A stretch of DNA of 64,000 nt. Origin: Mycobacteriales bacterium. Lineage in GTDB: Bacteria > Actinomycetota > Actinomycetes > Mycobacteriales > SCTD01. This document shows positions 8,024 through 54,732 of this stretch, piece after piece. The position numbers were made by a program, and so were the translations under genes. Below the pieces are notes generated by a model, which had not been told where the DNA came from, ran no database searches, and saw nothing but the letters and a program-made list of their open reading frames with translations. Location: the NCBI GenBank assembly GCA_030447385.1, contig JAUJOY010000001.1, positions 1-64,000 on the forward strand. The letters run 5' to 3'. Within the stretch, counting starts at the first letter, position 1; every line of letters begins with the position of its first letter.

Positions 8024-10050
8024 CAGCCCGCCATCTCGACCGGGGACGTACGCGGGAGGCGGACGCGGACCCCGGTGCCGCGTCCGGCAGCCCCCGTGAC
8101 CGAGCACGTGCCCCCGAGCTCGGCCGCACGTTCGCGCATGGAGCGCAGGCCGACCCCCTCCGACACGTCGCCCCGAAGGCCCACCCCGTCGTCGTCCACC
8201 TCCACGACCACTCCACCCTCCTCGGCGCGCAGGCGCACGGTGCACGTCGTGGCCCCGGCGTGCCGCAGGACGTTGACGACCGCCTCCTGGACGATCCGGT
8301 AGATGGCCACCTCGGCAGCGGCGGACAGCGGCGGCAGGTCGTCCGGCAGGTCGAGGTGGAGGTCGACCTGGCTCGACCTCGAGCGCGTCAGGAAGGTCCG
8401 CAGCGCCCCGATCAGACCGAGGTCGTCCAGCGCCGGCGGGCGCAGGTCGTAGACCAGCCGGCGGATGTCGGCCGTCGACGACTGCAGCTGGACGACGAGG
8501 TCCGACAGGATGCTGGTCGCCACGTCCGGCTGCTCGGTGAGCAGCTCGCGCGCGGTCTCAGCCTGCAGCGTCATGCTCGCGAGGGCCGGACCGAGCCCGT
8601 CGTGCAGGTCCCGGCGCAGCCGGCGGCGCTCCTCCTCCCGGGCGGTGACCAGCCGTTCCCGGGACTGCTGAAGCTCCTCGGTGAGATGGACCGCGTGCAC
8701 GGCTGCGCCGGCGTGCCGAGCCAGGTCGTCGAGCAGGGCGCGATCGGCCGGGGAGAACGCCTCTGCCGGCGAGCGCGGAGCCACCCGCAGCTCGCCCACC
8801 GCCTGGCGGCGGTGGACCAACGGCAGGACCAGCAGGTCGGGCACGTCGCTGCCGCGCTGAGCAGCCACCTGCAGGATGCCGTCGCGTTGCAGCGCGAGAG
8901 CGACGTACGGCGACTTGAGCGCGACCGAGACGCTGTCGACGACCGTCTGCAGGACGGAGTACGGGGCGCCTGTGGCCTGGAGCCGCTGACCCAGAGCGGA
9001 CAGCACCTGGTACGGCTCGTCGCGCTGGCCGTACATCAGCCGGTTCACGCCACGCTGGATCCGCTCGCGCAGCGGCGCGAACGCGAGAGCCACCAGCGCC
9101 GCACCGAACAGGGAGCCGCCGGCGTTCCCCGGCGCGCCGAGAGAGCGCCCGAGACCCGCCGCCACACCGACGTAGAGCGCCAGCAGGCTGATGGTCAACC
9201 CGCCGTAGACCAGCGCCCGATTCACGACGACGTCCAGGCCCCACAACCCCTTCCGCAGCAGGGCCACGGCCAGGGCGAGCGGGACCAGGGCGAAGCCGGC
9301 GGAGATCCCGGCCGGGCTCGCCATGTCGAGCAGTGCCGCTCCCGCGCCCGGACGGGACAGGGCCGGGACCGACTCCAGCAGCGGGAAGACGAGCTGCGTC
9401 ACCACTGCCACCGCCAGAGCCAGCGTGACCCAGCGCGTCTGCTGCCGCTGCTCAGGCGTGGAGACCCGCCGGTAGCGGTGGACCTGAGCGGCGAGCCCCG
9501 TCCCCAGTCCCAGCAGCAGGGCCCAGAACAGCGCCTCGCTGACCGGCGTGGCCACGGATCCCCGGGCCACCACGAGAGCCACCAGGCTGGCGGCCACGAG
9601 GACGCTCGACCACCGCGGGTGGAAGCGCCCGTCCGGGAAGGTGAACAGGAACAGCACCAGGCACGTGAGGAGGAGCTGGAACGCCACCGTCGCGGCGCCC
9701 TCCAGCGCGGGGCGCTGCTCCACGAGCGCCTCCATGTTGGGAGCGTTCGCCGCCCCGAGCGCCACGACGAGCAGCGCGGCGAACCAGGCGACCCGATCGC
9801 GCGGTCGACGCGCCACGATGAGCGCGGCGACCGCGAAGCAGACGAGGGCGAACGCCACGAGGACGGTGCTCCACCACGCGGCATACCAGGACACCGGCAG
9901 CCCCAGCTCGTCCAGGCCTGCCCGGACGGCCGGCCGAGGCGCGCTCTTGCTGGCGTGGACGGCAGGGACGGAGAGGGCGAACAACGCGACCAGTGGCAGC
10001 GTCAGGGCGGTCCACCCCGCGGCGAGCCCCACCACCCGGTCGTCCCGCAT
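8023..10050 (-). CDS. Membrane sensor histidine kinase (LiaS/NarX type)
   Basis: 675 residues. The N-terminal half has about eight to nine membrane helices (LTLPLVALFALSVPAV to a last pair near residue 300). A GAF-like domain follows at about 370-470 (YSVLQTVVDSVSVALKSPYV). A HisKA_3 dimerisation segment has RRDLHDGLGPALASM with H483 as the phospho-acceptor. The HATPase_c has a YRIVQEAVVNVLRHA N-box and DDGVGL G-box. The ATG at 10050 is chosen at the start of similarity; the open frame upstream is low-complexity. It is coupled to the response regulator downstream. Confidence 0.9.
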   Translation of the reverse strand: MRDDRVVGLAAGWTALTLPLVALFALSVPAVHASKSAPRPAVRAGLDELGLPVSWYAAWWSTVLVAFALVCFAVAALIVARRPRDRVAWFAALLVVALGAANAPNMEALVEQRPALEGAATVAFQLLLTCLVLFLFTFPDGRFHPRWSSVLVAASLVALVVARGSVATPVSEALFWALLLGLGTGLAAQVHRYRRVSTPEQRQQTRWVTLALAVAVVTQLVFPLLESVPALSRPGAGAALLDMASPAGISAGFALVPLALAVALLRKGLWGLDVVVNRALVYGGLTISLLALYVGVAAGLGRSLGAPGNAGGSLFGAALVALAFAPLRERIQRGVNRLMYGQRDEPYQVLSALGQRLQATGAPYSVLQTVVDSVSVALKSPYVALALQRDGILQVAAQRGSDVPDLLVLPLVHRRQAVGELRVAPRSPAEAFSPADRALLDDLARHAGAAVHAVHLTEELQQSRERLVTAREEERRRLRRDLHDGLGPALASMTLQAETARELLTEQPDVATSILSDLVVQLQSSTADIRRLVYDLRPPALDDLGLIGALRTFLTRSRSSQVDLHLDLPDDLPPLSAAAEVAIYRIVQEAVVNVLRHAGATTCTVRLRAEEGGVVVEVDDDGVGLRGDVSEGVGLRSMRERAAELGGTCSVTGAAGRGTGVRVRLPRTSPVEMAG

Positions 10051-43296: not shown

Positions 43297-44486
43297 GCGG
43301 CTTCTCCTGCGGTGGGTGCTGGCTCGGAGGACCGAGCGCTGCGAGGCACGGCGTGACCAGGCGCGACGGGCCGGTCAGGCGCGGCCGCGACGGGGACCGG
43401 CCGGCGCTCGGCCTGGTCGCCGGCGATGCGCCGGACGGCCTCGCGAGCGTCGCGGTCGACGCCGTTGATGATCCCGCTGTTGAGCCGGGTCTGCCACGGC
43501 AGCCCGACCCAGTGGAGGCCAGCGGCCGGGGACCGGCCTGCGTCGTGGATGGGCCGACCCTGCTCGTCGAGGGCGCCGGCGACACGGAGCCACTGGTGGT
43601 CGGTCTTGTAGCCGGTGCACCACAGGACCGCGTCCGCCGGGATCTCGGTGCCGTCTGCGAGGACGGCGGTCTGTCCGTACGCGCCGGCGACGCGCTCCGT
43701 GAGCATCCGGACCTTGCCTGCGGCGACGAGGGTCTGCAGGTCCCGGCCGATGATCCCGTTGCCGCGGGCACGGACCATCCGCGAGATCCGGCTGGTGCTC
43801 GGGCTGTTGAGGACACCGGTGAGCCAGAACCACCAGTAGACGCTGACGCCCAGGAGTCGGGCGGGCAGGAACCACATCCCGCCCGGCGCGGCGACGGTCA
43901 CCCGCCGCTCGGCGGCGGCGAGCTCGACGGCAAGCTGCGCGGCGGTGTTCCCCGCGCCGACGACGAGCACGTCCTCGCCGGGCAGATCGTCGGGGGCGCG
44001 GTAGGACGACGAGTGCATTTGCGCAACCGAGGGGTCGAAGCCGTTGGCGGCGTCCGGGACGAACGGCGCGGTGTACGGCCCGGTCGCGACGACGACGTGC
44101 CGGGCCCGGATCCGCCCGGTCGTCGTCTCGGCGACGAACCCGCCGTCGTCCCGGGCCAGGGCGAGGACACGGGTGCAGAGCCGGACCGGCAGCCGTTCCC
44201 GAACGGCGTAGTCGGCGAGGTAGTCGGCGGTCTGGTCCTTCGTCGCGTACTCGCCCGGGCCGCGGGGCGTCGCCGTGCCGGGGAGCGGGCTGAACCGCCG
44301 GGGCGTGAACAGGACCAGGCTGTCCCACCGCCGGCGCCAGCTGTCGCCGATCCGCTCCGCGCCGTCGACGACGAGGAACGACAGCGACGTCCGCCGAGCG
44401 AGGTGGTGCCCGGTCCCGAGCCCGGCCTGCCCAGCGCCGATCACCAGGACGTCCACGCCGGCGCCCTCGGGGTGGGGCCCGGTCAC
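43293..44486 (-). CDS. CzcO-like flavin-containing NAD(P)-dependent monooxygenase
   Basis: 397 residues. The FAD motif [20 protein letters not shown] and NADP motif [20 protein letters not shown] bracket a [20 protein letters not shown] loop; [12 protein letters not shown] and [12 protein letters not shown] close the fold. This class is called CzcO or Trk-like and often lies beside metal-efflux genes. The GTG at 44486 overlaps the CopA stop and the TGA overlaps the Lys-rich gene, so it is in the copA operon. The real substrate is unknown; oxidation of a metal-binding thiol or siderophore-like compound is possible. Confidence 0.85.
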
Positions 44487-47311
44487 CGCGCGCCCGCCGC
44501 CGCGGGCTGACGGGCGGCGCCGTCGGGCGCGTCGTGCATGACGGGGGGCTGGAAGCGGTTGAGGCGGGCGCTGTTGAGTACGACGCTGATGCTGGAGATC
44601 GCCATCGCGGCGGCGGCGATGAGCGGGGACAGGAGCGCGCCGGTGACGGGGTAGAGCAGCCCGGCGGCGACCGGGATAGCGGCGACGTTGTAGCCGAACG
44701 CGAGCACGAGGTTCTGCTTGATGTTGCGCATGGTGGCCTTGGACAGCGCGATGGAGGTGACCAGGCCGCGGAGCTCGCCGGACATCAGCGTGATGTCGGC
44801 CGCCTCGATCGCGACGTCGGTGCCGGTGCCGATCGCGACGCCGACGTCGGCCTGGGCGAGAGCGGGGCTGTCGTTGATGCCGTCCCCGACCATCGCGACG
44901 AGCTTGCCCTCGTCCTGCAGCCGGCGGACCTCGGCGGCCTTCTGGTCCGGCAGGACCTCCGCGAGGACCCGCGTGATCCCGACCTGGCGGGCGACGGCGT
45001 TCGCGGTCCGCTCGTTGTCGCCGGTCATCATCGCGACCTCCAGCCCGAGGCGCCGGAGCGCGGCGACGGCAGCGGCGCTGTCGGGCTTGACGGTGTCGGC
45101 GACGGCCACGAGCCCTGCGGCCCTGCCGTCGACGGCGACGTACATCGGGGTCTTGCCCTGGTCGGCCAGTCGATCGGCGTGCTGCTCCAGCTCGCCGGTC
45201 GTGATGTCGGCGTCGCGCAGCAGCCGGGCGTTGCCGATGAGCAGCTCGCGTCCGTCGACGGTGGCCCGTACGCCCTTGCCGGTGATGGAGTCGAACGTCG
45301 TCACGGGGGACAGCTCGACGCCGCGGTCCTTCGCGCCGGCGACGATCGCACCGGCGAGCGGGTGCTCGCTGTCGACCTCGGCGGAGGCGACCAGGCGCAG
45401 CAGCTCGGTCTCGTCCTGCCCGCCGACGGGGACGACGTCGGTGAGCTCGGGCTTGCCGCGGGTGATCGTGCCGGTCTTGTCCAGCACGACCGTGTCGAGC
45501 TTGTGGGCGGTCTCCAGCGACTCGGCGCTCTTGACCAGCACGCCGTACTGCGCGCCCTTGCCCGACGCCACCATGATCGACAGCGGCGTCGCGAGGCCGA
45601 GCGCGCACGGGCAGGCGATGATCAGGACGCTGACGGCGGCGACGACCGCCAGCGTGAGCTGCGGGCCGGCGACGAACCAGACGACGAACGTGATGATCGC
45701 CAGGAAGATGACGGCGGGCACGAAGTAGGACGCGATCAGGTCGGCGAGGCGCTGGATCGGGGCCTTGCTGCTGGACGCCTCCTGGACGAGCTTGATGATC
45801 TGCGCGAGCGCGGTCTCGGCCCCGACTCGGGTCGCGCGCATCGTGAACGCGCCGGTTGTGTTGACCGTCGCGCCGATGACCGGGTCCCCGGCGCCCTTGC
45901 TGACCGGCAGGCTCTCCCCGGTCACCATCGACTCGTCGATCGTGCTGGTGCCGTCGGTGACCTCCCCGTCGACCGGGACCTTCTCGCCCGGCTTGACGCG
46001 GAGCAGATCGCCGACCTGGACCTGGTCCGCGGGGATCTCCGTCTCCGCGCCGTCGCGGACGACGCGGGCGGTCGCGGGGGCCAGGGAGACGAGCGCGCGG
46101 ATTGCGTCGCCGGTGCCGGCGCGGGCGCGGGCCTCGATGAGCCGGCCGAGCAGGATGACCGTGATGATGAAGCTGACGACCTCGTAGTAGACCTCGCGGA
46201 CGTCCTCGGGCAGGACCTGCGGGATGAACGTCGCGACCAGGCTGTATGCCATCGCGGCGATGGTGCCCAGGGTGATGAGGCTGTTCATCTCGGCGCTGCG
46301 GTTGCGCAGGGCACGCCAGCCGATGCTGTGGATCGGCCAACCGACGTAGAGGAACACCGGCAGGGTCAGGAGGAGCTGGACGTAGCGGTTCTCCAGGACG
46401 TCGGGGACGTACTGCTCGCCGATGAAGTGCTCGACCATCGCGGCGTACAGCACCGGCACGGTCAGCAGCGCGCCGAGCGCTACGCGGCGCTTGAGGTCCC
46501 GGACCTCCTCCTTGCGGGCGGCCGCTTCGGCGTCCTCCGTGTCGGTGCTGCCGGGCTCGGGGCGCAGCCGGGCTGGGAAGCCGGTGGCCTCCGCGACGGC
46601 CCGGGTGAGGCCGTCGGGGTCGAGCCGGTCGGGGTCGTAGGTGAGGACGGCGCGTTCGGCGCCGAAGTTGACCGTCGCGCTGTCGACCCCGCCGACGGCC
46701 TTGAGCTGCGCCTCGGCGCGGGCGGTGTCGGTCGGCAGGCTCCGCAGCGCCCCGGGGAGCATGAACTCGATGCGTTCGACGGTGTGGCCGCCGTCCAGGC
46801 GCGGCCCGACGCCGACGGCCCGGGCGGTCTCGCGGTTGTCGGTCGTGACGCCGCGGGCGGCCTCGGCGACCTTGCCGGCACCCTGCTCGGGGGACGCGAG
46901 AGCGGTCTGCGCCTGCTCCTGCGCGCCCCCGCCGCCGGGGGCCTCGGCGACGAGGGTGCCGTGGAGCATGTTCATCCCGCACGCCCAGGAGTACTCGCCC
47001 GGCTCCGCGAGGTCGAGGTCGAGCGTGGTCGTGCCGAACGCCTCCAGCGACGCGCTCTTGCGCAGGTCGGGGAAGACGACGCGGGCGGTGCAGTCGCTGT
47101 TCTCCTGCCGGTGGAACCGCAGGCGGACGGGGGTGCCTGCCTCGACCCGGATCAGGCTCGGCGAGTAGCCGCCCTTGACGGTGATGTCGACGACCTGCCG
47201 GCCTCCCTCGACCTTGGCGTCCGTCGCGGTGCGGGGCTGGAAGAAGTACCAGGCGAGGCCGGCGATGAGGCCGAGGCCGGTCAGGACGACGGCGATGTCA
47301 GCGGCGGTCAT
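44483..47311 (-). CDS. copA: Copper P1B-type ATPase with N-terminal cupredoxin domain
   Basis: 942 residues. A first helix (6-24) leads to a cupredoxin-like domain (about 38-124) with possible ligands H67, C74, C111, M113, M115 and H117 ([11 protein letters not shown]). Residues 178-250 have the HMA beta-alpha-beta pattern ([20 protein letters not shown]) but no CxxC. The ATPase core is complete: TGES 464-467, CPC 567-569 in the membrane, D611 KTGT phosphorylation site, HP 650-651, GDGIND 809-814. It exports Cu(I). Head of a coupled operon with the flavoprotein and two unknown genes, 54 bp after the Met/His-rich gene. Confidence 0.95.
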
Positions 47312-47365: not shown

Positions 47366-47668
47366 TTAGCGCGGCCCGTCGGTCATGAGCTGGTGCATCT
47401 GGGCCATGCCGGGGTTCTGCTCGACGTGGAGCTCGTGCATCCGTGCTATGCCGGGGTTCTGCTTGACGTGCAGTTCGTGCATCCGGGCCATGCCCTGTCC
47501 CGGGCCCATCATCTGCTGGTGCATCCCCGCCGTCCCGGGCGCGGGCGCGGTGCCGCGGTCAGGCCGGTCCTGCGCCGCGGCGGTGCCGGCGGACGCGAGG
47601 AGCACGGCTCCTGCGCTGAGGGCGGCGAGGGCTGTTGCCGCGGTTGCGGCGGTGCGTCGGGCTGTCAT
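47366..47668 (-). CDS. Secreted Met/His-rich repeat protein, probable copper chelator
   Basis: 100 residues. A signal peptide (TALAALSAGAVLLASAGTAA) is cleaved near AAA-QD. The mature part carries two near-identical units, GMARMHELHVKQNP and GIARMHELHVEQNP, followed by a partial third, GMAQMHQL, plus a leading GMHQQMMGPGQ. About a third of the mature residues are Met, His or Gln. MxxMHxxH spacing suits Cu(I)/Cu(II) binding outside the membrane. GGAGG precedes ATG 47668 and the best copy of the cluster's operator lies 18-38 bp upstream. Probably the first gene of the copA unit. Confidence 0.75.
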   Translation of the reverse strand: MTARRTAATAATALAALSAGAVLLASAGTAAAQDRPDRGTAPAPGTAGMHQQMMGPGQGMARMHELHVKQNPGIARMHELHVEQNPGMAQMHQLMTDGPR

Positions 47669-47685
47669 GGTGCCTCCATCGTCTC

Positions 47686-47706
47686 GGGTACTCCCAGGGA
47701 GTACCC
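47686..47706. promoter_or_regulatory. CsoR-type operator 2 (perfect palindrome)
   Basis: GGGTACTCCC, central A, GGGAGTACCC: a perfect 21-bp palindrome, the strongest of five related boxes. It begins 18 bp upstream of the Met/His-rich gene start (minus strand) and abuts the end of the alpha/beta hydrolase gene. TTGTAG just upstream on the minus strand may be the -10. Confidence 0.8.
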
Positions 47707-47707
47707 G

Positions 47708-49042
47708 CTACAACGACGTCGACGCCCTGGTGTTCCCGGCGGCGAGGATCGCGCCCGCGACGTCGCCGGGCCGCTCGACCGGCAAGCCGTGCGTCCCGGG
47801 CAGCCGGACGACATCCACGCCCGGTCCGATCAGCCGGTCGAGGCCGGAGGCCAGGACGGTCTGGTCGTCCTCGGCCATGACCACGGTGGTCGGCAGCGGC
47901 GGGTCGGCGAGCCACTCGGGCAGCGGACTATCGTCCATCAGGCTCGTCAGAGCGTCGCGATAGGCGGGCCAGACGTAGGTCACGGCGTCCCGGGCGACAT
48001 CGGCGGGGATGTCGGGCGACACCCGCGCGGCGACGCGGGGCGCGAGCGCGGTCAGCGGCCGGCGGAGCAGGCACATCGTCCCGCAGGCGACGTCCGCGAC
48101 GGGCGAGCCGGTCATCGTCTTGCGGGCGATCCAGGAGCGTCCGCCGATCCGCGCGCGGGCCTCGGCGGCGTCGGCGAACGCCGCCGGCGCGACCAGGACG
48201 AGCCGCCGGACCAGCTCCGGCCGGTCCTTCGCACCGGTGACCGCGACGGCGGCGCCGTAGGAGTGCGCGACGAGCACGACCGGCCCGCCGCCGTGCCGCT
48301 CGATCAACCGGACGACCGCCGCGGCCTGGTCATCGAGGTGGAAGTGCGTGCCGAGCCTGATCGACGCACCGAACCCGAGCAGGTCCGGCACCAGGGTCCT
48401 GGCCCGGCCATCGATCTCGCGGACGACGGGCCGCCAGAACGCCGACGACGCCCCGAGCCCGTGCAGCAGCACGACGGTGGGGCCCGCGCCGCCGGCCTGC
48501 TCGTCGTGGACCAGGTCCGCCGCCGCCGGGTCGCGCTGCGGCCGCAGGACCGCCATCCCGGTCAGCCCGATGCCCGGCGGCAGTCCAAGAGCGGCCTCGG
48601 CCCGGCGGGCCCGGATCCACGCCGTCAGGGCGCCGACGTACAGGCCCAGGCAGGTCAAGGCGGCGAGGAGCCAGCTGCCGTCGCCGCCGGGCAGGTAGTG
48701 CGCGGCGACGTGGCCGAGGAACACGTCCATCCACCGGTAGTGCGGGACGCCGCCGCGGAACAGCAGGTCGGGAAGCATCGCGTACAGATGGAACGCCAGG
48801 ACCAACGGCAGGAGCAGCCGCGGCCCAGGCGCCCCGGTGACGAGCAGCCGGAACAGCAGGACCAGCGACCCGAACGCCAGCCCGACCAGGAAGTGCGTCG
48901 CCCAGTGAAACCGCGCATCGTGGGCGCTGTAGCTCGCGTACAGCGCGATCTCGGCGAGGACCAGCAGAGCGAGCTGCACGGCGAGGGAGACCGGCCGCAG
49001 CGGCCGGTACGCATGGCTCCAGCCGTCCGGGTCGGCGATCAC
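47708..49042 (-). CDS. Membrane domain fused to an alpha/beta hydrolase
   Basis: 444 residues. The first half has five membrane helices (VSLAVQLALLVLAEIALYAS; THFLVGLAFGSLVLLFRLLV; LLPLVLAFHLYAMLPDLLF) and HYRWMDVFLGHVAAHYLPGG. The second half is an alpha/beta hydrolase: VVLLHGLGASSAFWRPVV oxyanion region, nucleophile in VAHSYGAAV, acid in VVMAEDDQTV and His in PGTHGLPVE. GTG 49042 overlaps the stop of the thioredoxin-like gene. Third gene of the csoR operon. A link to copper is by location only; lipid or ester hydrolysis at the membrane is the likely chemistry. Confidence 0.75.
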   Translation of the reverse strand: MIADPDGWSHAYRPLRPVSLAVQLALLVLAEIALYASYSAHDARFHWATHFLVGLAFGSLVLLFRLLVTGAPGPRLLLPLVLAFHLYAMLPDLLFRGGVPHYRWMDVFLGHVAAHYLPGGDGSWLLAALTCLGLYVGALTAWIRARRAEAALGLPPGIGLTGMAVLRPQRDPAAADLVHDEQAGGAGPTVVLLHGLGASSAFWRPVVREIDGRARTLVPDLLGFGASIRLGTHFHLDDQAAAVVRLIERHGGGPVVLVAHSYGAAVAVTGAKDRPELVRRLVLVAPAAFADAAEARARIGGRSWIARKTMTGSPVADVACGTMCLLRRPLTALAPRVAARVSPDIPADVARDAVTYVWPAYRDALTSLMDDSPLPEWLADPPLPTTVVMAEDDQTVLASGLDRLIGPGVDVVRLPGTHGLPVERPGDVAGAILAAGNTRASTSL

Positions 49043-49608
49043 CGGCCGGCGTCCGCGACCGCGCCGGTGATGACGTCGACCTCGAACGCGTTCTGCGGGT
49101 ACACAGGGTCGAGCGTGGCGTACCTGACGGTCCTGCTCGGGTCGACGACCGCGTAGCCGATGGGCCGGCCACCGTCGACCGGCGTCGGCATCCCGATCCG
49201 GTCCGCGAGCTCGTCGCCGTCCGCGCCGACCTTCACGACCAGGTCGACGCCGTCATCGGCGACCGCATGCTGCCACTGCTGGAACGCCTCGCCGGAAGGC
49301 TGCTCGCGGTCGAACAGCACGACGACCGGGCGCCCGCCGAGCTCGACGCCGTCGACCAGGGCGGGCAGGACCGGACCCTCCAGGAGGAGGCCGTCTCGCT
49401 GGTCGCCGGCGGTCGGGTCGTCAAGCGGGCCCGGCGGGCGGACCACCAGCACGACGACGAGCGTGAGGACCACGGCCGCCAGGGCCGCGACGGCGGCGGG
49501 GATCCACCACCGCAGCGGCGGCTCCGCGCCGGGCAGCCTGCCCCAGTCGGCGTCCTGCGGGTCGTCGCAGCACGACCCGCGCTCGGCTCTGGCGATCGCG
49601 GCGGTCAT
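49039..49608 (-). CDS. Membrane-anchored thioredoxin-fold-like protein without CxxC
   Basis: 189 residues. A cytoplasmic head with a CCDD pair, one helix (WIPAAVAALAAVVLTLVVVL), then an outer domain: LGGRPVVVLFDREQPSGEAF, WQHAVADDGVDLVVKVGADG, IGYAVVDPSRTVRYATLDP. The strand-helix order suggests a thioredoxin-like fold, but no redox Cys is at the expected place. It starts 8 bp after the csoR stop and overlaps the hydrolase start, so it is co-transcribed with the repressor. Function unknown. Confidence 0.6.
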   Translation of the reverse strand: MTAAIARAERGSCCDDPQDADWGRLPGAEPPLRWWIPAAVAALAAVVLTLVVVLVVRPPGPLDDPTAGDQRDGLLLEGPVLPALVDGVELGGRPVVVLFDREQPSGEAFQQWQHAVADDGVDLVVKVGADGDELADRIGMPTPVDGGRPIGYAVVDPSRTVRYATLDPVYPQNAFEVDVITGAVADAGR

Positions 49609-49616
49609 CCCGCGGG

Positions 49617-49943
49617 CTACCGGTAGCGGGTGAGGACCGTCATGAGCTCGTCGTAGATGAGCGGGTCGCCGCCCTCAATCGCGGTGGTGACACACCGCTC
49701 CAGGTAGTTGCGCAGGACGATGTTGCCGACGGCGTCCAGGGCCTTCTGCACGGCGGCGATCTGCTGGAGGACGTCGGTGCAGTGCCGGCCGTCGTCGATC
49801 ATCCGGCTGATTCCGGCGACCTGGCCGGATGCGCGGGCGAGGCGCTTGAGGGCCTCGTCGCGCTTCTCCGGCGACATCATCTCGCTGTCGCACCCCGACA
49901 CCGCCGGCACGTGCGCCGCGGCCGTCTTCGTCCTTGTCGCCAT
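49617..49943 (-). CDS. csoR: CsoR/RcnR-family metal-responsive repressor
   Basis: 108 residues of the DUF156 all-helical repressor family: EKRDEALKRLARASGQVAGI, DVLQQIAAVQKALDAVGNIV, then LRNYLERCVTTAIEGG. Aligned to M. tuberculosis CsoR, the Cu(I) ligands C36 and C65 are kept (C55, C84), but H61 is Tyr (Y80), while the residue before the first Cys is His (H54) where CsoR has Tyr35. ATG 49943 has AAGGAG upstream. First gene of an operon with the thioredoxin-like and hydrolase genes. Five palindromes nearby are its presumed operators. Confidence 0.9.
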   Translation of the reverse strand: MATRTKTAAAHVPAVSGCDSEMMSPEKRDEALKRLARASGQVAGISRMIDDGRHCTDVLQQIAAVQKALDAVGNIVLRNYLERCVTTAIEGGDPLIYDELMTVLTRYR

Positions 49944-49979
49944 CGGGTCTCCTTCGTCGCGGCGTGCAGTCGCCCCATC

Positions 49980-49996
49980 ATACTCCCCCCGGGCAT
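49980..49996. promoter_or_regulatory. CsoR-type operator 3 (weak)
   Basis: ATACTCCCCCCGGGCAT, 37 bp upstream of csoR on the minus strand. It keeps TACTCCC and GGG but the right half is degenerate. Likely autoregulatory; the weakest of the five boxes. Confidence 0.5.
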
Positions 49997-50093
49997 GCGG
50001 TCGCGCCCGTATGGGAGAGGGCGTGGGACCTGCGCCCGTCCGCCTGGTGCCGCACACGCCTGACCGAAGGAGACTGACCGCGACCGCTGGTCG

Positions 50094-51706: not shown

Positions 51707-53698
51707 TCACGGGTAGCGGTACTCGCGCGTGAGGAGGTGGTTCGGCGTGACGATCCGCTCCGAGACGATCCGGTCCTCGTCGTCCAGGCGCAGCGCGAAG
51801 TGGTAGCCGAGGGCGGGCAGCGCGAACAGCAGCGTCCTGCCGCCGTCCCGCATGGCGACGGTGGCGTCGGCGGCGCCGCCCTCGGCCCACGGCTGTCCGG
51901 CGAGGAACTCCTGCCCGGTCCGGCGGGATCGGTGCGGCAGGACCACCCCAAATCCCGACGTGACCGTCTCGACGGTGTCGATGGCACTCCGCGCACCCAT
52001 CGCGTCCTGGACCCTGCGGAGCAGGCCGGGCGCGGGGACCGCGGGCCACGGCACCGGGATCGAGACGCTGCCGCCTTCGAAGCGGTCCGCCGCCACCTCG
52101 AGCGCGAGGACGTTCGTGCCGGGCGTCCAGTCGACCGCGCCGGTCCAGCAGGACGGGCCGCAGCTGTCGAGGGCCAGGGCGCGCATGCCGCCGGACGGCC
52201 CGGCGACCCGGCCGTCGAGCCGGATGCGCGCGGGGGTCCCGCCGTCGGGGGCCTTCGCGCGGAGCTCGACGCGGCCCTGCGACGCGACGGCCGCGACGGT
52301 GACCTGCCGGGCGCGTTCGGCGACCCGCACCGTCGGGCCGACCGGGGCGGCGAGCAGGCTGGACACCGGCACCAGCCGGGCGGGCGTGACCGTCGTGACG
52401 GCGGCGGCGGCGAGGACGACCGCGGCGAGAGCGGCGGTCTCCAGCGCGACGACCAGCCCGAGCGGCCGCCGGAGCGCCGGGACGGAGACTGCGACGGGCA
52501 CTGCGACGGGCGCGTCGGCGGGCACGGGCGCGGTGTAGCGCTCAACGGAGGGGGCGGGCGGGTCGGTCCGGAGCCGCCGGCGGGCCGCGACGCCCAGGGC
52601 GACGACCAGCAGGAACACCGCGATCTTGCCGAGCAGGAGCCGCCCGTAGGTCGTGCCGGTCCAATCGGCGGGCTCGGGCAGGAGCCGCAGGGCGCTGACC
52701 GTGCCGGTCGCGGACACCAGGACGAACAGGACGAGGGCGTTGCGGGCGTAGGTCCGGGCGGCGACGCGGACGGCCTTGGGGCGGCCGCGCCACGCGGCGG
52801 CGAGCCGCAGGACGTGGACGAGCCCGCCGAGCCACAGCGCCGCGGCGAGGAAGTGCGTGACCGTCAGGACCGCGCCGAGCGGGCCGTCTGCCTCGCCGGG
52901 GTGCGCCCGTGCGCCCTCCAGCGCGACGACGAGCAGCAGCATGAGCCCGGACTGCAGGCCCCGGCCCGGCCGTTGGGCGAGGACCGCCGCCATGCCGAGC
53001 GCCAGGGCCTGCAGCCCCAGGAGCCGCCCGACGCCGGGCGACGTCGCGGCGGTGAGCAGCCCGCCCGTGCCTCCGAGCCCGGCGAGCAGCCCCACCGCGG
53101 CGAGTAACGCGGCGACCGAGCCCGCCCGGAGCAGCGGGCGCGGGCCCGGCAGGCCCCCGGTCGCGTCGTCGACCCGCCACGCGAGCCAGGCGCCGCCCAG
53201 GGCGACGGCGACTCCGAGGAACAGCAGGCCCCGCAGCGCCGTCGTCCCGACCGGGACGGACTCCGGTGCGCCGCCGCCGGAAACCCCCCTGCGGCCAGAC
53301 GCCCCTGCCGCGCCGACCGGCGTCGCGACGCCGAACGCGAACGTCCCCGAGATCAGGTCGCCGTCCTGGCCGACGACCCGGTAGGTCGCCTCGTACGCGC
53401 CGACCGCCAGCGGCGCCTCCGGCGTCCCGACCAGGCCGGCCCCGCCCTGCGCGCTCGTCACCCGCAGGCGGACCTCCCGGTCGCCGGCGGTCTTGAGGAC
53501 CAGGGGCCGGTCCGGCAGCGTGACCGGCTCGTTGAATGCCAGGGCGATCTCGGGGGGCGGGTCGGTGACGGCGTACCCGGCCCCGGGCGTGCTGCTGACG
53601 AGCGCCGGGTGGGCCGACGCGGGCGCGGCGGCGCCGAGCAGGCACCCTAGGACCAGGACCGCCAGGACGGCCAGACGGCCGGTGGCCCGCGGCCTCAC
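51707..53698 (-). CDS. CopC-CopD fusion copper protein
   Basis: 663 residues. A signal peptide ends ASAHPALVSSTPGAGYAVTD, giving the N-terminal His-Pro of mature CopC; the CopC fold continues EIALAFNEPVTLPDRPLVLK to YRVVGQDGDLISGTFAFGV. Eight CopD-type helices follow (TALRGLLFLGVAVALGGAWL; AVLTVTHFLAAALWLGGLVH with a conserved His; LLGKIAVFLLVVALGVAARR). The last 230 residues are an extra outer domain rich in beta-strand, with a CGPSC pair. GTG 53698 overlaps the stop of the propeller gene. Copper uptake or periplasmic handling is the family role. Confidence 0.88.
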   Translation of the reverse strand: MRPRATGRLAVLAVLVLGCLLGAAAPASAHPALVSSTPGAGYAVTDPPPEIALAFNEPVTLPDRPLVLKTAGDREVRLRVTSAQGGAGLVGTPEAPLAVGAYEATYRVVGQDGDLISGTFAFGVATPVGAAGASGRRGVSGGGAPESVPVGTTALRGLLFLGVAVALGGAWLAWRVDDATGGLPGPRPLLRAGSVAALLAAVGLLAGLGGTGGLLTAATSPGVGRLLGLQALALGMAAVLAQRPGRGLQSGLMLLLVVALEGARAHPGEADGPLGAVLTVTHFLAAALWLGGLVHVLRLAAAWRGRPKAVRVAARTYARNALVLFVLVSATGTVSALRLLPEPADWTGTTYGRLLLGKIAVFLLVVALGVAARRRLRTDPPAPSVERYTAPVPADAPVAVPVAVSVPALRRPLGLVVALETAALAAVVLAAAAVTTVTPARLVPVSSLLAAPVGPTVRVAERARQVTVAAVASQGRVELRAKAPDGGTPARIRLDGRVAGPSGGMRALALDSCGPSCWTGAVDWTPGTNVLALEVAADRFEGGSVSIPVPWPAVPAPGLLRRVQDAMGARSAIDTVETVTSGFGVVLPHRSRRTGQEFLAGQPWAEGGAADATVAMRDGGRTLLFALPALGYHFALRLDDEDRIVSERIVTPNHLLTREYRYP

Positions 53699-54645
53699 TC
53701 GGAGTAGCGGGTGGTGAACGTGCGGCCCTGGTCGGTGCTGGCGAGGATCCCACGGTCGGTCGCGGCGACGTAGAGCGTCTCCGTGCCGTCGCGGACATCG
53801 ACGGTCATCGCCTCGGGCTGGCCCCCGACCGAGCCTCGCTCGCCCCAGGTGGTCCCGCCGTCCTCGGACCGTTGCACGTTCCCGTCCGGCGTCACGCCGT
53901 AGAGCTGGCCCTGTCCGGCCCAGGCCAGGACGACGAGCGTCGGCGCCCCGGCGATCGGCGTCCAGGCCCGGCCGCCGTCGGTGCTGCGGACGACGCCCTG
54001 CCGGGTGGTCGCGAGGAGCGTGTCCGGGTCGGCGGGGTCTACAGCGAAGTCGGCCATCGGGAGCTTTGAGCGGCGGTCCCACTCCTTGCGGTCCCGGCTG
54101 ACCATGAACGTCTGCGACGTCGAGTCGTAGCCGTAGACGTTGCCGTGGGCGGCGTGCAGGGCGTGGAAGTCGGCCTTGCCGTGCAGACTGATCCGGTCCC
54201 ACGTCTCGCCGCGATCGTCGGACTCGATCAGGCCGAGCAGCGGCGGACGGACGTCGTCCTCGCGAAAGTCCGGGTGGCCCGAGCCGATGAACTTGCCCGG
54301 TCCGACGATGGAGAAGCCCATCGTGTCCTGGGCGCGGTTCGCGACGCGCTGGGCCCTGCCCTGCTCAGGGACGCGGAACAGGCCGGAGTGCGTCGCGGCG
54401 TAGAGGACGCCGTCGCCCGGGTCGACGCCGAGGCCGTGGACGTGGACGACGCCGCTCTCGACCTCCAGGGGCGGCAGCCCCGAACTCGCCCGCAGGCCGT
54501 CCCGGCCGTTGTCTCCGTCGGACTGCGCCAGGAACACGGCTCCGGCAGCCAGGGCGGCGGCGGCCAGGACGCCGGTCACGGCGATCCTGCGTCGGCGCTC
54601 GGCGCGCTCCCGCTCTTGCCGGGCCCCGGCGGTGCGCTTCGACAT
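53695..54645 (-). CDS. Membrane-anchored BNR/sialidase-like beta-propeller (F510_1955 type)
   Basis: 316 residues. Short basic head, one helix (IAVTGVLAAAALAAGAVFLA), then a propeller with repeated Asp-box-like motifs: ESDDRGETWDRI, STDGGRAWTPI, SEDGGTTWGERG, STDQGRTFTTRY. HVHGLGVDPGDGVLYAATHS and FHALHAAHGNVYG place several His that could bind metal. GAGGAG precedes ATG 54645 and operator 5 lies 22-39 bp upstream. It overlaps copCD. Such propellers are found in copper-resistance loci; the molecular role is unknown. Confidence 0.8.
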   Translation of the reverse strand: MSKRTAGARQERERAERRRRIAVTGVLAAAALAAGAVFLAQSDGDNGRDGLRASSGLPPLEVESGVVHVHGLGVDPGDGVLYAATHSGLFRVPEQGRAQRVANRAQDTMGFSIVGPGKFIGSGHPDFREDDVRPPLLGLIESDDRGETWDRISLHGKADFHALHAAHGNVYGYDSTSQTFMVSRDRKEWDRRSKLPMADFAVDPADPDTLLATTRQGVVRSTDGGRAWTPIAGAPTLVVLAWAGQGQLYGVTPDGNVQRSEDGGTTWGERGSVGGQPEAMTVDVRDGTETLYVAATDRGILASTDQGRTFTTRYSE

Positions 54646-54666
54646 GCTGAATGCTCCTCGGTCTCC

Positions 54667-54684
54667 GGTACTCCCTGGGAGTAA
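54667..54684. promoter_or_regulatory. CsoR-type operator 5
   Basis: GGTACTCCCTGGGAGTAA: the palindromic core GTACTCCC-T-GGGAGTA is nearly complete. It lies 22 bp upstream of the propeller-copCD unit on the minus strand, with TAGATT as a possible -10 just upstream. Confidence 0.75.
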
Positions 54685-54732
54685 TCTACCCGCCTTCCGG
54701 ACGGGGGACCTGCCGGGACGTTCCGGGCGGGC

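Follow-up and report, generated by a model that had tools for sequence, protein, structure and literature searches.

The locus analysed here raises a simple question: what does a small, putatively exported Met/His-repeat protein do when its gene is placed between an operator and copA, the gene for a copper ATPase? The window, as the whole 64,000-nucleotide stretch of DNA is called below, belongs to a Mycobacteriales bacterium. A previous sequence-only reading had proposed a small exported copper sponge, one that either passes copper on to CopA's cupredoxin domain or captures exported copper.

The gene and its repeat units

The open reading frame (47366–47668, stop codon included), for which no strand had been given, lies on the minus strand and has 100 codons. 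Codon-position GC (0.75/0.55/0.87), a GGAGG ribosome-binding site (47673–47677, direct sequence reading) 4 nt before the ATG, and the presence of homologues indicate that this is a real gene. The product has the sequence MTARRTAATAATALAALSAGAVLLASAGTAAAQ / DRPDRGTAPAPGTAGMHQQMMGPGQGMARMHELHVKQNPGIARMHELHVEQNPGMAQMHQLMTDGPR, with a slash where the signal peptide is presumed to end, although it could end one residue sooner. As proposed previously, the N-terminus (residues 1–33; 47570–47668, minus strand) is, by eye, signal-peptide-like, with an AxA-type site, TAAA/QD, at its end; cleavage is placed near TAAA/Q from the translation. The mature protein would contain 67 residues, including nine Met, six His and no Cys. 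The sequence shows neither a lipobox Cys nor a sortase motif, nor any other evident anchor, which suggests that in a Gram-positive organism the protein might be lost to the medium.

DNA repeats at an exact 42-nt spacing span four units on the minus strand of the gene. These are a degenerate unit 0 (residues 46–59, TAGMHQQMMGPGQG; 47492–47533), which is in exact 42-nt register with the others, unit 1 (residues 60–73, MARMHELHVKQNPG; 47450–47491), unit 2 (residues 74–87, IARMHELHVEQNPG; 47408–47449), and unit 3 (residues 88–100, MAQMHQLMTDGPR; 47369–47407), which has the MHxxM form and 13 residues. Two near-identical 14-residue units and a partial third had been counted before; the near-identical pair is confirmed in units 1 and 2, while the count fell short of the four units now recognised. 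The regular spacing of Met and His that had been described is borne out by four MHxx[M/H] motifs in the mature protein at steps of exactly 14 residues. When the mature sequence was shuffled 200,000 times no shuffle reached three spaced motifs, the best result being two, in 37 shuffles. Moreover, the 47366–47668 frame is the only one of the 370 six-frame open reading frames of at least 60 residues in the window to contain two or more such motifs.

The choice of MHELH as the defining repeat was too narrow. The family consensus is MHELM, and the second His is found only in the window protein. There it is common to units 1 and 2, and this shared variant, taken with the near-identical DNA of the two units, suggests that they arose by duplication within the lineage.

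An AlphaFold2 model, built from an input of 13 low-diversity sequences, predicts three consecutive helices at residues 58–70, 72–84 and 86–97, matching units 1–3. Block-mean pLDDT is about 82–90 from residue 61, there is no confident structure before residue 58, and overall pTM is 0.31, so that the model is best described as a low-pTM string of helices. In a helix, unit positions 1, 4, 5 and 8 share one face.

Relatives and conservation of the repeat

As a lone query the window protein finds few relatives. The HMM search with the repeat unit that had been suggested was carried out as family-profile searches. These returned relatives in copper clusters and no match to an established family with another function, and the protein proved not to be an orphan. 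About 15 relatives were collected, all of them actinobacterial, from the same genus, the Geodermatophilaceae (Geodermatophilus, Modestobacter and Blastococcus), Arthrobacter, Pseudarthrobacter, Kocuria and Actinophytocola, with metagenome-assembled genomes among the sources. Scanning 84,980 species genomes by alignment gave 12 loci, actinobacterial in every case, and profile searches added further relatives in 8 of 115 Geodermatophilaceae genomes. Among 396 phylum-wide genomes the only match was the window's own, and this rare and patchy occurrence indicates that the family is accessory. Weak matches elsewhere in the window's genome are signal-peptide or composition matches and not second copies.

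All relatives have a signal-peptide-like N-terminus followed by two to four units, with the consensus M-A-R-M-H-E-L-M-x-x-G-N-P-G, and the 14-residue spacing is exact in 14 aligned proteins. A 78-residue relative from the same genus (genome G022), detected through synteny only, has two units 13 residues apart. In the 14-member alignment the Met, His and Glu columns of the unit are invariant, and the signal peptide and unit positions 9–11 vary. The pattern used to tally units fixed M4 and H/C5 and restricted positions 1 and 8, so that the tally is independent evidence at positions 2, 3, 6, 7 and 9–14 only; for the positions fixed by the pattern the evidence is the invariant alignment columns. 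In the Geodermatophilaceae, Cys replaces His in the last unit. In all five comparisons of the repeat region pN was below pS (0.041/0.14, 0.145/0.475, 0.136/0.31, 0.134/0.353 and 0.096/0.504). The window protein shares the features that delimit this 14-residue repeat family, since it has a signal peptide and at least two exactly spaced units, and its gene stands immediately behind a palindromic operator within a copper cluster.

The repeat had not been recognised as a known copper chaperone, and it is likewise unclaimed in Pfam, NCBIfam and the PDB sequences. Scans of Pfam and NCBIfam with the window protein and 14 relatives identified no credible family. Five of the 14 members matched Metal_resist (PF13801) weakly, at best with E 0.0084, which is below the gathering cut-off; this is a metal-linked family, but the window protein itself was unmatched. 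Matches to Phage_tail_X (PF05489) were compositional, to the repeats or the signal peptide, and no stretch passed alone. A search of PDB sequences with the family profile gave a single chance match (E 1.2), and neither CusF nor any other copper protein of solved structure was matched. In word searches of the open-access literature on actinobacterial Met-rich copper proteins and on copper resistance in Geodermatophilaceae and Arthrobacter, the repeat appeared in no title or abstract.

Copper gene clusters and their operators

The gene order in the window is CsoR, an unnamed protein, an alpha/beta hydrolase, the repeat protein, CopA and a flavin monooxygenase-like protein. The unnamed protein (49039–49608, minus strand) has one hydrophobic segment and no Pfam match, and is 64% and 54% identical to syntenic proteins in two genomes of the same genus, G017 and G022, respectively. 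The hydrolase (47708–49042, minus strand), with a hydrophobic N-terminal region, also has counterparts in the G017 and G022 clusters, as well as in a second cluster of the same genome. The copA gene (44483–47311, minus strand) starts 54 bp beyond the stop codon of the repeat gene, exactly as had been reported, and encodes a Cu P1B-type ATPase (TIGR01511, 629 bits).

Nearly all relatives lie within copper clusters. G017 has the window order minus CopA, with its Cu-ATPases on other contigs, and the G022 cluster combines the repeat gene with CopCD, a cupredoxin-type CopA and CsoR. A CopA about 80% identical to that of the window is encoded divergently from the repeat gene in Geodermatophilus and Blastococcus capsensis. 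The repeat gene of Arthrobacter, Pseudarthrobacter and Actinophytocola lies behind a co-directional gene for a Cu-type ATPase. The occurrence of three different arrangements (downstream, divergent and upstream) around the same type of partner argues for a functional linkage between the repeat protein and CopA. Further genes in these clusters encode SCO1/SenC, TlpA-like thioredoxins, CopC-CopD, DUF326 Cys-rich and SHOCT-like proteins, and BlaI/CopY-family repressors. The most constant neighbour is a BNR-repeat lipoprotein-like gene (53695–54645, minus strand, in the window), which has matches in most of the loci.

Directly upstream of the repeat gene, 17 bp before its start codon, lies the perfect 21-bp palindrome GGGTACTCCCAGGGAGTACCC (47686–47706), a putative CsoR operator arranged as 10+1+10 with no mismatches, where none is expected by chance in the window. 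One further site within three mismatches is present in the window (54666–54686, three mismatches), before the BNR-repeat gene, whereas shuffles yield none. The 3.4-Mb genome contains three sites with up to three mismatches, all on the same contig (C9). The two imperfect ones are in or near copper clusters, the third site being about 43 kb off, in the second CsoR cluster. A relaxed search for TACTCC-N0..6-GGAGTA found one additional site elsewhere in the genome. The claim that the cluster's strongest operator precedes the gene is thus confirmed, and this is the only perfect match genome-wide.

The presumed regulator is a CsoR-family repressor (49617–50057, minus strand; PF02583, 3.6e-25) whose annotated start is uncertain, and we infer that it binds the palindrome and controls the gene through it. 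In alignments with CsoR sequences from the PDB, the window CsoR has His-Cys where the Mycobacterium tuberculosis protein has Tyr-Cys, and Tyr-x-x-x-Cys where that protein has His-x-x-x-Cys. The Tyr and His that flank the Cu(I) site thus seem to have changed places, both here and in the CsoR of the second cluster (9398–9745 of locus L049, minus strand); the G022 CsoR has, by eye, Tyr at both places. The Cu(I) site of the window CsoR may therefore be unusual, and with the canonical His missing its copper sensing is not assured.

The second, partial copper cluster of the same genome (L049; contig C9, about 86.5–91 kb) contains a CsoR 95% identical to that of the window, an alpha/beta hydrolase, a DsbD-like protein, a BNR protein and a CsoR-type palindrome, and has neither copA nor a repeat gene. 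Since its hydrolase matches come in several pieces, this cluster may be decaying.

Most relatives have another palindrome at the same place. TACTA-N7-TAGTA is invariant before the repeat gene in ten relatives; no clear site was seen upstream of the gene in one metagenome-assembled genome (L039), and the site is degenerate in G017 and G022. The longer form, TACTAT-N5-ATAGTA, occurs with up to one mismatch at only 2–6 sites per Geodermatophilaceae genome of 4.4–5.5 Mb. These sites are grouped near the copper island, and the exact form is the one before the repeat gene in five genomes out of seven (G655, G161, G288, G213 and G105). The window's genome contains no such site. In these relatives a BlaI/CopY-type repressor gene is present in the same cluster, and one was also recognised by sequence at 8668–9051 of locus L040. 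We infer that the TACTA-N7-TAGTA palindrome belongs to BlaI/CopY; the assignment is kept provisional because the published CopY/BlaI operators follow a TACA/TGTA pattern (PMC7253601). Two unlike palindromes, CsoR-like in the window and TACTA-N7-TAGTA in most relatives, thus share the top rank in front of one and the same gene, and such a change of repressor type before a conserved gene would be a clear regulatory replacement. Across loci L033–L044 TACTAT-N5-ATAGTA also marks a compact copper regulon near genes for BlaI/CopY-type proteins and M48/M56 peptidases.

Proposed function and alternative explanations

The features observed directly are the export-type sequence, the repeat geometry, the predicted helices, the genome-best operator, the copper-cluster linkage and the conservation of Met and His. 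The favoured reading, to which we assign a probability of roughly 70%, is that the repeat protein is a copper-induced, exported Cu(I) sponge located outside the cytoplasmic membrane on the exit side of CopA. Metal binding, the identity of the metal and functional coupling to CopA are presumed; Ag(I) would probably be bound as well. Each 14-residue unit would fold as a short amphipathic helix, one face of which would carry M1, M4, H5 and M/H8, and N-P-G would end and restart the helix between units. On a rise in copper CsoR would leave the palindrome, and the repeat protein and the downstream CopA would be co-produced. CopA would then export Cu(I) and the repeat protein would capture it on the exit side, so that the level of free Cu(I) near membrane and wall would fall. 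The number of units could vary through tandem duplication. That the relatives form a family and lie in copper clusters fits the earlier suggestion that exported copper is captured.

This placement at the exit of CopA is favoured because of the SilE-like helix geometry and because CusF, an external Met/His protein, takes Cu+ directly from CopA and then passes it on (PMC9470648). SilE is a periplasmic 'molecular sponge' with i/i+3/i+4 Met/His motifs that is disordered when empty and helical around Ag+, and it binds Cu2+ too (PMC5008109); strong Ag+ binding is also described for MX2H and HX2M motifs in isolation (PMC10080550). Like SilE, the window protein is small, exported (by eye), free of other domains and associated with a metal-efflux gene set, with i/i+3/i+4 Met/His on helix faces, although its helix is predicted whereas that of SilE forms on metal binding. 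SilE, which belongs to a plasmid-borne sil operon, differs in its length (143 residues), its non-periodic HxxM/MxxH motifs and its Gram-negative periplasmic setting. PcoE is an exported Met/His-rich protein of the pco copper cluster with its own regulated gene and a stretch, MAEMHKKM, resembling MARMHELM, but it has 144 residues, no 14-residue tandem period and two-component control. CusF resembles the window protein as an exported Met/His Cu(I) binder on the outer side, such binding being presumed for the latter, but is a beta-barrel with one Met2His site, in contrast to the predicted helical multi-site repeat.

These likenesses raise the alternative that the protein is a far-diverged true member of SilE/PcoE, by descent or transfer. 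The short look-alike stretches (HDMMQNGNSAAHQDMAEMHKKMM in PcoE and HELMTEGNPGMARMHELM in the relatives) speak for it, but profile similarity is not significant: hhalign gave a probability of 6.1% over 23 columns with a profile of four SilE/PcoE-type sequences only, and hmmsearch in both directions, with sets of 4–16 sequences, remained below inclusion (best whole-sequence E 0.05), the comparison set being records fetched from plasmids. In addition, SilE/PcoE have no fixed 14-residue period, and tblastn of 72,556 plasmids with the window and Arthrobacter proteins gave no match. Such kinship, already disfavoured, is thus very unlikely. A delivery chaperone, which would pick up Cu(I) at CopA or outside the cell and bring it to an external cupro-enzyme or its assembly factor (SCO1, a multicopper oxidase or cytochrome oxidase), would suit the onward transfer known for CusF and the SCO1/SenC, TlpA-like thioredoxin or multicopper-oxidase-like genes in several relatives' clusters. 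However, an array of tandem sites that differs in copy number points to capacity more than to a specific hand-off, the operator is arranged as in detoxification genes, and the immediate cluster of the window has no SCO1 match; this explanation is considered unlikely. The protein could also be a sacrificial Met buffer against surface oxidants, co-induced by copper since copper makes radicals, and with no specific metal role. Met makes up 9 of the 67 mature residues, and Met oxidation of Escherichia coli CusF under copper stress is documented (PMC9302797), but a pure buffer needs neither the fixed M-x-x-M-H-x-x-M geometry nor a near-invariant His and Glu, which makes this proposal highly improbable.

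The hand-off of copper to the CopA cupredoxin domain, as first suggested, has in its favour a cupredoxin-type CopA that is adjacent or in the same cluster in the window, G022, Geodermatophilus, Blastococcus and Arthrobacter. The order within the window CopA is a hydrophobic segment (about residues 6–24), the cupredoxin domain (Cupredoxin_1, 4e-17), a degenerate HMA-like domain and the ATPase core, and by hydropathy the next hydrophobic segment starts at residue 276. The P1B ATPase core requires a cytosolic N-terminus. With no hydrophobic segment between the cupredoxin and residue 276, this standard topology would put both the cupredoxin and the HMA-like domain in the cytosol and out of reach of an exported protein. 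Moreover, the CopAs in the Pseudarthrobacter and Kocuria clusters match an HMA domain but no cupredoxin, and in other relatives a cupredoxin-type CopA is absent or decayed, Modestobacter sp. VKM Ac-2984 having only a remnant. The hand-off is accordingly not supported and considered very unlikely. The fusion of an N-terminal transmembrane segment and a cupredoxin (residues 1–125) to a Cu P1B-ATPase with a degenerate HMA is an observation in its own right, and a cytosolic cupredoxin in CopA would be unusual. Remnants of a cupredoxin-type CopA lie beside an intact repeat gene in Modestobacter sp. VKM Ac-2984 and in G288 (L028 8369–8668; L029 9628–9843), where the repeat protein outlives the pump.

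Overall, the Cu(I)-sponge reading would make these proteins, probably, an unnamed actinobacterial family of SilE-like sponges, alike in working principle and with no claim to SilE/PcoE membership. A broader proposal is offered tentatively, with the odds against it as a whole: an undescribed, modular Cu(I)-sponge family without SilE/PcoE descent, whose capacity is set by unit number, whose CsoR-type and BlaI/CopY-type control has been swapped while the genome's strongest operator was kept, and which may leave the Gram-positive cell copper-loaded as a disposable export carrier. A Cu(I) acceptor beyond CopA is well described for E. coli, in CusF, and none was found described for actinobacteria. 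The Met/His-repeat family, which is tiny, modular and preceded by a very strong operator, is a testable candidate for this acceptor, and its 14-residue repeat is a natural candidate for a metal-binding module, with a capacity countable in units and possible uses in Cu and Ag capture.
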